Assembly (NCBI GenBank): GCA_036375715.1
Contig: DASVBS010000064.1
Location: 1-64,000 of the forward strand
DNA: 64,000 bases
Source of the DNA: Longimicrobiaceae bacterium
GTDB lineage: Bacteria > Gemmatimonadota > Gemmatimonadetes > Longimicrobiales > Longimicrobiaceae
Direction: 5' to 3'
A program made the position numbers and the translations under genes. Positions 1,052 through 62,136 of the stretch are shown in pieces. The notes beneath the pieces were generated by a model that had not been told where the DNA came from, did no database searches, and was given only the letters and a program-made list of their open reading frames with translations. Position 1 is the first letter of the stretch; each line of letters starts with the position of its first letter.

Positions 1052-1179
1052 AAATTACGAATTACGAATTACGAATTACGATTCCGGACCGCGTTTCCCA
1101 ATATCCTGTAGGGGCGCCCCTGCGGAGCCAACTCAAAATCAGGACGTTCCAGTAATTCGTAATTCATAATTCGTAATTC
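1052..1179. repeat. Heptad inverted-array element A (GAATTAC / GTAATTC)
   Basis: Four tandem 7-base units occupy 1052-1079 (AAATTAC then three GAATTAC). A 72-bp centre follows, then four units of the exact reverse complement at 1152-1179 (GTAATTC twice, ATAATTC, GTAATTC). The arms could pair over about 28 bp. The centre contains the palindrome AGGGGCGCCCCT near 1110-1121. The element lies between the pnp terminator and the ald start. See findings for the family of six. Confidence 0.9.
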
Positions 1180-11767: not shown

Positions 11768-12544
11768 CTAGGCGCGAACACCCAACACCGCCATCTGCCG
11801 ACCCGCGGAGCCACCTCGATGCGAGAAGAACGCCCCCGGGCCGCATCGTGTGCAGTGAGTGGATACACTCATCCGCCCCACGTCGATCCCCGCGGCAGCG
11901 GCGCGCTCGAGGACGACAGCCCGCAGATCGATCGGCTCCGGTCGGGACGGCGCCGGCTCGTTCGGGACGAGAGCCGCGTGTACTTCGGGCCCGACCTCGT
12001 AGCACTCGCCGCAGATGGATGGCCCGCAGTGCATCCAGAGCTCCGGCTCGCCCTCTCCCTGCCAGCGCCGCAACCGGTCGATCGCCCGCTCCACGACCCC
12101 CGCCGCAATCCCGCGCCACCCCGCGTGAACGAGTGCCACCGCCCGGATACGCACATCGACCAGGTAGACCGGCACACAATCGGCCACCGAGATGGTGAGC
12201 AGCACCCCGGGGGAACGGGTGAGGTGGCCGTCGTGTCCGTCGCCGATGAGCAGACCCGGCTCATCCGCTGGGCCGTGGGAACGTAGCTCCGCACCGTGCA
12301 CCTGACGGGAATGGACCACGCGCCGCATCCCGGTGGCGCGGCGGAGCCGTGACCATCGAGCCACCACCGCTCCCACCGGAGCCGCTCCGAAAAGGCCCAG
12401 GTCGAAGGGCTCCGCCTCGTCCCCGCGGCCGGTGATCCCCTGCACCAGCCACGGCATCCGCTCCAGCCATTCCGGATGCTGCCAGAGAGGGAGGTCACCG
12501 GCGGCACGGACCTCCTCCACCCGAGACACCGACAGCCGGCTCAC
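11768..12544 (-). CDS. pgeF: Peptidoglycan editing factor / purine nucleoside phosphorylase-like (YfiH, DUF152)
   Basis: Family members act on purine nucleosides and, in E. coli, guard peptidoglycan composition. The 258 residues show the family zinc-site motifs: 'VVHSRQVHGAEL' near 75, 'ISVADCVPVYLVD' near 118, 'ALVHAGWRGIAAGVVERAI' near 136 and 'CGPSICGECYEVGPEV' near 172. The start is GTG at 12542-12544, overlapping the stop of the phasin-like gene (GTGA). The rimP promoter follows it. Confidence 0.9.
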   Translation of the reverse strand: MSRLSVSRVEEVRAAGDLPLWQHPEWLERMPWLVQGITGRGDEAEPFDLGLFGAAPVGAVVARWSRLRRATGMRRVVHSRQVHGAELRSHGPADEPGLLIGDGHDGHLTRSPGVLLTISVADCVPVYLVDVRIRAVALVHAGWRGIAAGVVERAIDRLRRWQGEGEPELWMHCGPSICGECYEVGPEVHAALVPNEPAPSRPEPIDLRAVVLERAAAAGIDVGRMSVSTHCTRCGPGAFFSHRGGSAGRQMAVLGVRA

Positions 12545-12873
12545 TCCGTGACGATGATGTCACTCGGGCGATCGTCGGAGCCGGACGACGCCCCTTCCAG
12601 GCGGCTGACACGCTCCCGCAGCTCGGCCACTTCCTCGCGCAGCGCCTCGAGCTCGCGTCGGCTCACCACCTCGAGGCGCTCCCGCGCCTCCTCCAGCCCC
12701 GCCTGCAACCGCTCCGCGGCCCGCTGGACCGCCTGCTTCGCTCGATCCGCCGAGAGATCCCCCCGCTCGACCGCCTCCTCCAGCGTCTCCTCCACCGCCT
12801 CCTTGAAGGCCGTCAGGATCCCGATGCCGGTACGGATACCTTCGCCAATGCCGCCGCGACGCTCAGTGCTCAT
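12541..12873 (-). CDS. Phasin-like coiled-coil protein
   Basis: A 110-residue protein from the ATG at 12871-12873 (MSTERRGGIGEGIRTGIGIL); a TTG at 12897 would add eight residues. After a Gly-rich N-terminus it is nearly all charged helix with Glu/Arg/Ala/Leu heptads ('RAAERLQAGLEEARERLEVV', 'REEVAELRERVSRLEG'). It resembles the PhaF / poly(hydroxyalkanoate) granule-associated family. No PHA gene lies in this window, so a granule role is inferred weakly. It is translationally coupled to pgeF. Confidence 0.65.
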   Translation of the reverse strand: MSTERRGGIGEGIRTGIGILTAFKEAVEETLEEAVERGDLSADRAKQAVQRAAERLQAGLEEARERLEVVSRRELEALREEVAELRERVSRLEGASSGSDDRPSDIIVTE

Positions 12874-12914
12874 ATTCTCAGCCAAATTCTCCACCAAAGC
12901 GAAGGTCGTTTCGG

Positions 12915-13078
12915 GAATTACGAATTACGAATTACGAATTACTACCCTTTGTCATCCTGAGCGGAGCCCCGCAGGGGCGGAGCGAAGCATCGCACCAGGC
13001 ACCGTCGCCCGACGTGGTCCTTCTCCGGGCACAGGCGACAAGGCCGGCAGGTAATTCGTAATCCGTAATTCGTAATTC
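12915..13078. repeat. Heptad inverted-array element B (GAATTAC / GTAATTC)
   Basis: Four perfect GAATTAC units fill 12915-12942. After a 108-bp centre, four reverse-complement units fill 13051-13078 (GTAATTC, GTAATCC, GTAATTC, GTAATTC). The repeat word is the same as in element A at 1.05 kb. The centre holds CCGCAGGGGCG (12969-12979), the reverse complement of an 11-mer in the centre of element A. The right arm ends 3 bp from the murA stop codon; the left arm is about 40 bp from the phasin-like start. Confidence 0.92.
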
Positions 13079-13081
13079 GTA

Positions 13082-14377
13082 TCACTCTTCCCGCGAATCC
13101 TGCCTCTCGATCACCGCCCCCAGCGACCGCAGGCGCTCATCGATCCGCTCGTAGCCCCGCTCGATCTGGCCGATGTTGTAGATCTCGCTGGTCCCTTCGG
13201 CGCCGAGGGCCGCGATGAGCAGCCCCATGCCCGCGCGGATGTCGGGGGACTCGACGGTGGCGCCGTGGAGGCGTGACGGCCCGACGATCACCACGCGGTG
13301 CGGATCGCACAGGATGAGACGGGCCCCCATGGCGACCAGCTTGTCGGTGAAGAACATTCGCGACTCGAACATCTTCTCGTGGATCAGGATCGTGCCGTCG
13401 CACTGGGTCGCGGTGACCAGCGCGATGGAGGTCAGATCCGCGGGAAATGCCGGCCAGGGGCCATCGTCGATCTTCGGAATGTAGCCGCCCAGGTCGGTCT
13501 TTACCTTCCGCTCCTGGTCGGCGGGGATGAAGAGGTCCTTCCCCCGCTTCTCCGCCCGCACCCCCAACCGCTCGAAGCCGATCAGAGTCGAGTCCAGGTG
13601 CTGGATCGCGGCGTCCTCGATCAGGATCTCTCCCTGGGTCACCGCGGCCAGACCGATGAAGGAGCCCACCTCGATGTGATCGGAGGTGATGCGGAAGGTC
13701 CCCCCGCGCAGGCGCTCCACCCCCTGGATCTCCAGCGTATTGGTGCCGATCCCTGAGATCTCGCACCCCATCCCCACCAGCATGTGGCAGAGGTCCTGGA
13801 CGTGCGGCTCCGCGGCAGCGTTCCGCAGCCGCGTCGTCCCCTGCGCCAGCGCCGCCGCCATGATGGCGTTTTCGGTGCCGGTCACGCTCGGCTCGTCGAG
13901 GAAGATGTCCGCCCCCTTCAGTCGCCCGCGCGAACGCAGGCCAAACACCTGGCGTTCAAACCCCATTTCGGCGCCCAGGGCGCCGAGCGCCAGGAAGTGC
14001 GTGTCCATGCGACGGCGGCCGATCACGTCGCCGCCCGGCGGCGGCAGGTGCATCTGTCCGGTGCGCGCCACCATCGGACCGACCAGGAGGATCGACGCCC
14101 GGATGCGCGAGGCCTGGGCGGCCGCCAGCTGGGCCTGCCCCACGTTGCGGGCATGAATGCGCACCCGGTGATCGCCGATCCACTCCGTCTCCGCCCCGAG
14201 CGTCTGTATCAGCTCCAGCAGCGTCCGGACGTCGCGAATGTCCGGCACGTTCTCCAGGATCACCTCCTCCTCGGTCAGGAGGGCTGCGGCGATCATGGGT
14301 AGCGCGGCGTTCTTGTTACCCGCCGGGCGCACCGTTCCCCTCAATGGGCGTCCACCCTCCACAACGAACTTCGGCAC
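13082..14377 (-). CDS. murA: UDP-N-acetylglucosamine 1-carboxyvinyltransferase with Asp at the Cys115 position
   Basis: First committed step of peptidoglycan synthesis: enolpyruvyl transfer from PEP to UDP-GlcNAc. The start is GTG at 14375-14377 after AGGAGA, giving 431 residues beginning '[20 protein letters not shown]' with Lys in '[10 protein letters not shown]' near 22. The active-site loop reads '[14 protein letters not shown]': residue 117 is Asp where E. coli has Cys115. The C-terminal motifs '[16 protein letters not shown]' and '[16 protein letters not shown]' are present. Asp at this site is known to allow catalysis while preventing fosfomycin adduct formation. Confidence 0.96.
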
Positions 14378-33514: not shown

Positions 33515-33649
33515 GAAGGGAACTGCTCCTGTGGTGCGGGTCGCCGGGCGACCCATTGGGTTGATTCTTCCACCGCCGTCATCCGTTGCGCCGACCGCCC
33601 GCAGGCGGCACCCGACGCAGCGTCAGGCGAGTGTGATTGGTTGAAGGAC

Positions 33650-33733
33650 GTTATCCGTTATCCGCTATCCGTTCGCTGAGGCTACTTCGCGGCAGACCGC
33701 GAAACGGATAACGTAAAACGGATAACGGATAAC
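33650..33733. repeat. Heptad inverted-array element C (GTTATCC / GGATAAC)
   Basis: Left arm: GTTATCC, GTTATCC, GCTATCC (33650-33670) then GTT. Right arm: GGATAAC, GTAAAAC, GGATAAC, GGATAAC (33706-33733). The 35-bp centre contains its own hairpin TTCGCGG-CAGA-CCGCGAA near 33686-33703. The element lies inside the rplM-rpsI-rpsB operon, 4 bp from the rpsI stop and 135 bp before rpsB. Orientation of the arms is opposite to elements A, B, D and E. Confidence 0.9.
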
Positions 33734-33737
33734 CCTC

Positions 33738-34331
33738 TTACCGCTTCGAGAACTGGAACCGCTTGCGCGCCTTGGGGCGGCCCGGCTTCTTGCGCTCCAC
33801 CTCGCGCGGGTCGCGGGTGAGGAGCTCCTGGCTGCGCAGGCGCGAGCGGAAGTCCTCGTCGACCTTCAGCAGGGCCCGGGCGAGGCCGAGGCGAACCGCG
33901 TCCGCCTGTCCGCGCTGCCCACCGCCGCGCACGTTCACCTTCACGTCGAAGCGGTCCTGCGTCTCGGTAACGGTAAGGGGGAGCACGATGGACTGCCGGA
34001 GCACTGCGCGCGGGAAATACTCCTCCAGGCTGCGACCATTGACCGTCCAGCGCCCCTCGCCTGGACGCAGGAAGACGCGCGCGACCGAGCTCTTACGACG
34101 GCCGAGGCCGTGGTACTGCTCGCCCTGCGCGCCCGCGCCATCGGCGCTGCGACGACGCGCCACCGGCGTCGGCACGACCGGCGCCTCCGCGGCAGGAGCC
34201 GGCGCTGCCGCGGCCGGAGCGGGAGCAGCAGCGGCGGGAGCCGGCGGCACCGGCTGCGGCGCCGGGGTGGCCGTCTCGTTCGTCTCCTGCGGCTCCTCAG
34301 GGGAGACCACGTCCGAATTCTCGTTCGCCAT
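33738..34331 (-). CDS. rpsI: 30S ribosomal protein S9 with long Ala/Pro N-terminal extension
   Basis: The conserved S9 body begins at '[20 protein letters not shown]' near residue 73 and ends with the universal '[13 protein letters not shown]', whose last Arg reaches the P-site tRNA. Residues 1-70 are a low-complexity extension with repeated APAPAA units and an acidic start ([20 protein letters not shown]). The ATG 34329-34331 is 9 nt after the rplM stop and no nearer start is obvious, so the extension is probably translated. Total 197 residues; S9 is usually about 130. Confidence 0.94.
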
Positions 34332-34983: not shown

Positions 34984-35003
34984 CGGTCAGGGAGACGAGG
35001 AGG

Positions 35004-35189
35004 GGTGACAAGGTGACAAGGTGAACGGGTGAGGAGCCATCCCGAGGCAAAGCAAAGGATCCGCACTTTCGCTCAGATGCCATGAAACGTGCGAATCCCT
35101 CTCGCTGATGCTCTGGCCGGATTGTCGGGCTGTCGGGACCGGGCGGTTTGACAACGGCGACGGCCTCACCTTGTCACCTTGTCACCTTG
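35004..35189. repeat. Octad inverted-array element D (GGTGACAA / TTGTCACC)
   Basis: The left arm has two perfect GGTGACAA units, then GGTGAACG and GGTGAGGA (35004-35035). The right arm has a partial unit, then TTGTCACC twice (35171-35186) and TTG. The period is 8, unlike the other elements. The centre of about 130 bp contains GGATCC and CTTTCGCTCAG near 35059-35075. The right arm ends 4 bp from the rpoD stop codon. This element, the G-quadruplex motif and the rplM leader account for the 424 bp between rpoD and rplM. Confidence 0.88.
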
Positions 35190-35193
35190 CGGC

Positions 35194-38852: not shown

Positions 38853-38971
38853 GAAGCTAGAAGCTAGAAGGCTTAGAGCGCCGGGCTGTCGCGGCATAGC
38901 TGGGGATCCTTCCGAAAGTCGGAGAGCAGGAAGCCGAGAATTCTAGCTTCTCGCTCCTAGCTTCTAACTTC
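38853..38971. repeat. Heptad inverted-array element E (GAAGCTA / TAGCTTC)
   Basis: The left arm has two GAAGCTA units at 38853-38866 then GAAGGCTTA. The right arm has TAGCTTC, TCGCTCC, TAGCTTC, TAACTTC (38944-38971). The centre of about 70 bp carries GGATCCTTCCGAAAGTCGG (38904-38922). It fills nearly all of the gap between the regulator stop (38979) and the aldehyde dehydrogenase start (38826). Confidence 0.85.
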
Positions 38972-62012: not shown

Positions 62013-62040
62013 GACGGCGGGGGAGGATGAGCAGCCTGAC

Positions 62041-62136
62041 GGATAACTGATAACGGATAACGGACAACGGATAACCGATAACTGACAACCGCCAGCTGAT
62101 AGCACCAGCCGGGCCGATAGCCGACAGCCAATAGCC
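62041..62136 (+). repeat. Heptad direct-array element F (GGATAAC, GATAGCC)
   Basis: Tandem 7-base units run from 62041: GGATAAC, TGATAAC, GGATAAC, GGACAAC, GGATAAC, CGATAAC, TGACAAC, CGCCAGC, TGATAGC, ACCAGCC, then GATAGCC, GACAGCC, AATAGCC (62116-62136). Positions differ mainly by T/C and A/G transitions (consensus nGAYARC). Unlike elements A-E no inverted arm is present. It starts 28 bp after the first permease stop and ends 10 bp before the ATG of the second. Confidence 0.85.

Follow-up and report, generated by a model that had tools for sequence, protein, structure and literature searches.

What kind of element is the palindrome that stands directly behind murA in this Longimicrobiaceae genome, and how did it get there? 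From the sequence-only reading of the window (the whole stretch of 64,000 nucleotides analysed), this palindrome, element B, and a second one, element A, had been taken for copies of one mobile or gene-converted unit sharing an arm word and a core. Element B proved to be real and occupies positions 12915-13081 of the window sequence. The features of both elements and of the surrounding genes are:

1053-1181, no strand assigned: element A, with the same arms as B and a centre containing the AGGGGCGCCCCT palindrome (GTAG-like head)
12541-12897, minus strand: phasin-like gene (PF05597, just under the Pfam cut-off), next gene downstream of murA and in the same direction
12915-12942, plus strand: left arm of B, four perfect GAATTAC units; the AATTACG strand begins at AATT (12916)
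12950-12993, plus strand: left REP-like core copy, TGTC head, ATCCTGAGCG ... GCGAAGCATCGC, GAGCCCCGCAGGGGCGGAGCG insertion form
12969-12979, minus strand: 11-mer CGCCCCTGCGG, common to the A and B centres and part of the B core; near background genome-wide
13014-13041, minus strand: decayed inverted core copy (GTGGTCCTTCTCCGGGCACAGGCGACA), weakly supported by alignment with other cores
13051-13081, minus strand: right arm of B, inverted copy with 4.4 GTAATTC units and one mismatch; its final base adjoins the murA stop codon
13082-14296, minus strand: 3' part of murA (PF00275), stop codon at 13082-13084; the true start lies slightly upstream of 14296

Element B and the family of AATTACG elements

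The arms of B pair with a single mismatch across the best 28 pairs and enclose a centre of 108 bp. That B adjoins the murA stop codon was correctly recognized, although its earlier end at 13078 fell 3 bases short. In the window 12 arm matches were found vs 0.04 expected, which places the arms beyond chance. In our reading, B is probably a composite, lineage-specific intergenic repeat in which inverted arrays of about four AATTACG units surround a half-decayed, TGTC-tagged REP-like dimer.

The arm word is highly amplified in this genome. The double word AATTACGAATTACG occurs 392 times exactly in 4.37 Mb (195 on the plus and 197 on the minus strand), and the reversed word on neither strand. An unbiased sample of 464 kb, made up of the window and 20 spread stretches of 20 kb each, contained ten AATTACG elements, corresponding to about 94 per genome; pattern counts and roughly 0.5 Mb of sampled sequence thus underlie the genome-wide statements. 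Polarity was invariant in 41 paired elements, some of them taken from places in contig order, others through centre matches or from the unbiased sample: all 41 have AATTACG as the left and CGTAATT as the right arm word, and the opposite order was not seen. Both arms most often comprise four units, their copy numbers are uncorrelated (r = -0.20), and the array start is fixed at AATT in 78 of 83 arms. Whole elements fold far beyond shuffled sequences (mean z -6.4) and centres alone hardly do (-1.0). Hence, the arms make the structure. The centres, 13-229 bp long, are mostly unrelated: 60 of 820 centre pairs matched, and these matches go back to the REP-like core, to AATTTTG words or to residual arm units. 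Since the centres differ, whole units have not been copied.

AATTACG is one of several such words. Every tandem array in the 464-kb sample has a period of 7 or 8, and inverted pairs are formed by AATTACG, GGTGACAA, GAAGCTA and GTTATCC; shuffles gave none. Inverted GTTATCC/GGATAAC arms lie at 33648-33735, behind the stop of a minus-strand gene at 33738, and the related ACGGATA forms an array at 62039-62091 that stands alone, without an inverted partner. The element at 35003-35190, 4 nt from a stop codon, has arms of the octamer GGTGACAA around a relic of the REP-like core of B (35034 onwards) and so repeats the architecture of B with another word and another period. A short GAAGCTA array is located at 38853-38870; this word forms an inverted pair in another sampled locus (L211, 16255-16413). 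Four centres (L011, L015, L018 and L207) carry CAGAGG/CCTCTGCG-like words in inverted order, so that several word layers appear to be nested in one element.

Cores inside the arms

The centre of B, which contains GTCATCCTGAGCG exactly at 12951-12963, matches nine other places in the genome. The core has the consensus TGTCATCCTGAGCG-(AAGCG or GAGCCCCGCAGGGGCGGAGCG)-AAGGATCGC, followed by a loop of about 20 nt and an inverted copy. It was found within AATTACG arms, within AATTTTG/CAAAATT arms (L057, L194), within the GGTGACAA arms of the window, and naked (L054, L060). The question whether cores form a family independent of arm words can therefore be answered positively for the B core, which occurs in three arm types and without arms.

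According to sections of PMC3733652, CGTC-tagged REPs have a head that varies to TGTC and a stem that begins with AT, lack a dedicated transposase, and as dimers can be nested in longer palindromes. In B and several aligned cores the TGTC head is likewise followed by AT. Further features shared with the CGTC/TGTC-tagged and GTAG-tagged REPs of those sections are the oppositely oriented dimers and the position downstream of ORFs. In contrast to CGTC-tagged REPs, with stems of 8-9 bp, loops of 4-5 nt and a CCA tail, the stem of the B core is irregular, only the ATCCT/AGGAT pairs being regular, and its tail is CGC. The core fits REPs in head, dimer and placement and departs from them in stem and tail, and is therefore called REP-like only. 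Wrapping arms of tandem words, as found here, are absent from the REP description in the same sections.

A string in the B centre had been considered recurrent in several phyla. Enrichment was confirmed for some genomes of the same family: TCATCCTGAGCG is commonest in G014 (136 copies), G007 (60) and G013 (43), with 0 in the reversed control. The wider claim did not hold, since the string is near background in most of the tested genomes from other phyla, which were chosen for the arm word and not at random.

Element A has a 72-bp centre; it follows pnp and an inverted repeat accompanied by a T run. Its centre (TGTAGGGGCGCCCC) looks like the GTAG-headed REP type, which would be another type than the B core. 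The 11 bases reported as shared by A and B in opposite orientation are exact at both positions (1115-1125, plus strand; 12969-12979, minus strand). Background frequency of this 11-mer had been named in advance as speaking against a shared core, and with 18 copies in the genome vs 10 of its reversal it is indeed near background. Four of the 18 copies lie within AATTACG elements, which cover well under 1% of the genome, and the probability of its presence in both centres is about 0.005 (dinucleotide shuffle, post hoc). The A centre gave no BLAST match to any other sampled centre; its only tie to the core family is the 11-mer, which is also present in two core-family centres. The shared core was consequently dropped as main evidence for common origin. 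What remains of the claim that A and B are copies of one unit is that both belong to the same large family in this genome, recognizable by arm word, by polarity and by a place at gene ends.

Gene ends and the murA-phasin spacer

Genes were called with a simple codon-usage gene finder, by which 92% of the window is coding. In the unbiased sample 34 of 36 arrays are intergenic. The median distance of AATTACG elements from a stop codon is 10 nt, and 41 of 61 stop-facing ends are within 20 nt. The position of B beside the murA stop thus follows a rule and is no peculiarity of B. Convergent gaps are enriched for AATTACG elements (17/47 vs 22/207 of all gaps of at least 60 bp) and divergent gaps are poor in them (3/47 vs 41/207); the bias is milder in the unbiased sample alone, where arrays of any word occupy 4 of 42 convergent, 23 of 313 tandem and 1 of 43 divergent gaps. 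Among arrays of other words, GGGGAAT and AAGTGCT of relatives as well as GTTATCC and GGTGACAA of this genome clearly stand within about 16 nt of stops. At some loci the array apparently supplies, with its first two bases, the end of a stop codon, a T being followed by AATTACG. This was seen at L018 and L043 and at loci in other phyla (e.g. L084, L090, L108, L110, L114, L150, L153 and L164); the distances show a peak at -2. There are four array-completed stops in the present genome, two of which are TGA codons formed from a GA start.

Relatives keep the gene order murA, phasin-like gene, yfiH-type gene. The distance between the first two genes is 184 bp here vs -22 to 30 bp in many relatives. 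Seven genomes of the same family (G008, G013-G016, G018 and G020) have spacers of 145-365 bp with palindromes unrelated in sequence to B and folding z values of -2.3 to -12.5. The spacers of G013 and G014 contain two GTAG-headed hairpins each, inside long outer stems; these stems (L249 and L246, z -10.7 and -12.5) are very long and near-perfect. Both genomes do have Y1_Tnp transposases. Such patchiness points to repeated gain at a single gene end, or to hairpin turnover, rather than to descent of the B sequence. The gain of B at this site is deduced from the spacer length across genera.

That sister genera repeatedly hold unrelated palindromes at this position could alternatively mean that a hairpin is useful there. 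B would then be a functional 3'-end RNA device under selection, whose sequence turns over and whose pairing behind murA is kept. The folding of the seven spacers and of whole elements agrees with this, as does a proximity to the stop codon like that of REPs located no more than 15 nt from stops, for which a reduction of translation is reported. Against it, the many relatives with short or overlapping spacers have no room for a hairpin, the AATTACG word family is found in our sample behind genes of every kind, and variants are not concordant between left and right arms (5 shared vs 3.8 expected, P 0.32). We regard such a device as rather unlikely. As some relatives leave the murA-phasin spacer empty and others fill it with unrelated palindromes, it provides a ready comparative test bed.

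Distribution of the word and origin of the arrays

In evenly drawn samples of two phyla the word is sporadic. In the own phylum the double word was found in 2 of 298 genomes, the one other genome having a single match, and in Bacteroidota in 36 of 297, with 1-8 copies apart from the chosen centre, the sole explosive one. A uniform spread within phyla was rejected on these counts. A scan of named genomes with a 21-mer array hit, among the matches listed, Cyanobacteria, Bacteroidota (including Chitinophaga), Acidobacteria, Planctomycetes, Ignavibacteria, Akkermansia and others. Several of the matched genomes from other phyla hold 100-844 double words, the highest number belonging to Chitinophaga solisilvae, and the reversed control was 0 in all but one genome. 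At loci from other phyla, selected by the word itself, the AATTACG strand begins at AATT in 154 of 163 arms, preceded by at most one chance base, and the opposite array end varies; many of these arrays are single. Sharing of the word across phyla may partly reflect convergence among very many genomes, each with its own words. Relatives of the same family use inverted pairs of their own 7-8 bp words (GGGGAAT, AAGTGCT, GACGCACT and ACGCGGAG), and no inverted word pairs were found in 200 kb of relatives of the same order.

A literature search for the literal words yielded nothing relevant, but systems of similar architecture have been described. The GGGAATC heptamers of Xanthomonas are tandem, mostly four units long, intergenic and close to the 3' ends of ORFs (on average 28 nt); each genome has 70-75 convergent inverted pairs, which are rare between divergent genes and for which no function was found (PMC4692102). 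AATTACG elements resemble them in having own tandem 7-bp units, typically four, and convergent inverted intergenic arrays near ORF 3' ends. In contrast to the Xanthomonas word, AATTACG is AT-rich with a single G and does not form quadruplexes, although relatives do use the G-rich GGGGAAT. Moreover, several words share one architecture here, AATTACG arrays almost always come in pairs, and these can enclose a REP-like core. The TAACTGA direct repeats of marine Beggiatoaceae are, like AATTACG, one tandem heptamer at many intergenic sites with a patchy presence in distant phyla, and have no known mechanism (PMC4679880). They differ from AATTACG in being mostly upstream of start codons and almost never in inverted pairs (one in 170 sets). 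B combines these closest precedents with the tagged REPs and varies a known but unexplained kind.

From the observed family, architecture, polarity and gene-end placement we infer, with a probability of roughly 0.6, that B is a selfish or near-neutral gene-end palindrome that forms a strong RNA hairpin and has a REP-like effect on transcript ends. AATTACG elements would have been amplified here as selfish or near-neutral DNA, B having been gained in the murA-phasin spacer in the present lineage. They would have survived mainly just behind stops, above all between convergent genes, where promoters and reading frames remain uncut. The arms are predicted to form, in the murA transcript, a stem of about 28 bp immediately behind the stop codon. 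B may then act like a gene-end REP by shielding or trimming the 3' end or by slowing translation termination. It is not predicted to be an intrinsic terminator; a search for a GC-rich stem followed by a T run gave 0 terminator-like sites in 12500-13400. No sigma-70 promoter pattern was found at B, and 4227 Rfam models gave 0 matches up to E = 1 in 12850-13150.

Searches for machinery bear on the spread of the elements. Y1_Tnp (PF01797, IS200/IS605-type tyrosine transposase) had 0 matches in the own genome G000, an assembly of 95.2% completeness, and 0 in the word-rich genomes G330, G332, G338, G340 and G343. RAYT mobilization (REPtron) was rejected because Y1_Tnp is missing from the own genome. 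RVT_1 likewise had no match in the own genome, 95% complete, or in G330, G338 and G343, so templating by a canonical RVT_1 reverse transcriptase was rejected as well; non-canonical enzymes may be involved. Target-site duplications were sought in the 41 elements, and no flank repeat of at least 4 bp was found (2.6 expected by chance). Gene conversion between arms was rejected, as the non-concordant variants give no sign of arm-to-arm correction. For the supposed mobility, presence and absence in relatives fits insertion, but target duplication, a RAYT-type transposase and copying of whole units are all lacking. From the missing Y1_Tnp and RVT_1 matches, target duplications and arm concordance we conclude that the elements are probably near-neutral or selfish and that gene ends tolerate them. 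Against this preferred reading, a purely neutral element needs copying machinery, and the Y1_Tnp and RVT_1 profiles revealed none.

A non-autonomous MITE, with the heptamer arrays as terminal inverted repeats moved in trans by a putative transposase, would account for the dispersal, the inverted ends, the patchy distribution and the outer boundary at AATT in both the own and the other-phylum arms. It is improbable given the lack of target duplications, centres that are not copies of each other and mostly lack common internal sequence, independently varying arm copy numbers, the many single arrays without an inverted partner in other phyla, and a genome without matches to Y1_Tnp, the transposase type surveyed.

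The asymmetry between fixed start and free end, which a transposon end would show as well, is our most intriguing finding. It led us to consider, as a quite speculative idea, a templated, directional process that extends 3' DNA ends or hairpins at gene ends by tandem words of 7-8 nt. This process would begin each array at AATT and end it more freely, and would give the two inverted arms their polarity and independent copy numbers, the same word being used by unrelated phyla. If true, templated addition would represent a separate class of activity shaping genomes, next to transposons, RAYT/REP systems and slippage. Replication slippage acting in place on chance heptamers, without spread, is very improbable as sole cause: it fits variable and uncorrelated copy numbers and the report that, in most prokaryotic genomes surveyed, heptamers are the most frequent of the long simple repeats (Mrazek 2007, as cited in PMC4679880), but it can only adjust copy number and cannot place the same word, in inverted pairs with a fixed start phase, at dozens of unrelated sites, and is contradicted by the word counts and by the polarity and placement of the pairs.

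The genome studied here constrains any mechanism by which one heptamer word reaches hundreds of sites. Such a mechanism has to produce periods of 7 or 8 only, inward polarity, a fixed 5' start with a freer 3' end, about four units and independent arm lengths; it has to act at gene ends without target duplication and without a Y1_Tnp or RVT_1 match, and to employ other words at gene ends in sister genera. Viral sequences contain the word, too: 40 stretches of IMG/VR contigs (L279-L318) carry at least three perfect AATTACG units, which possibly indicates a route between hosts or host DNA in these contigs.
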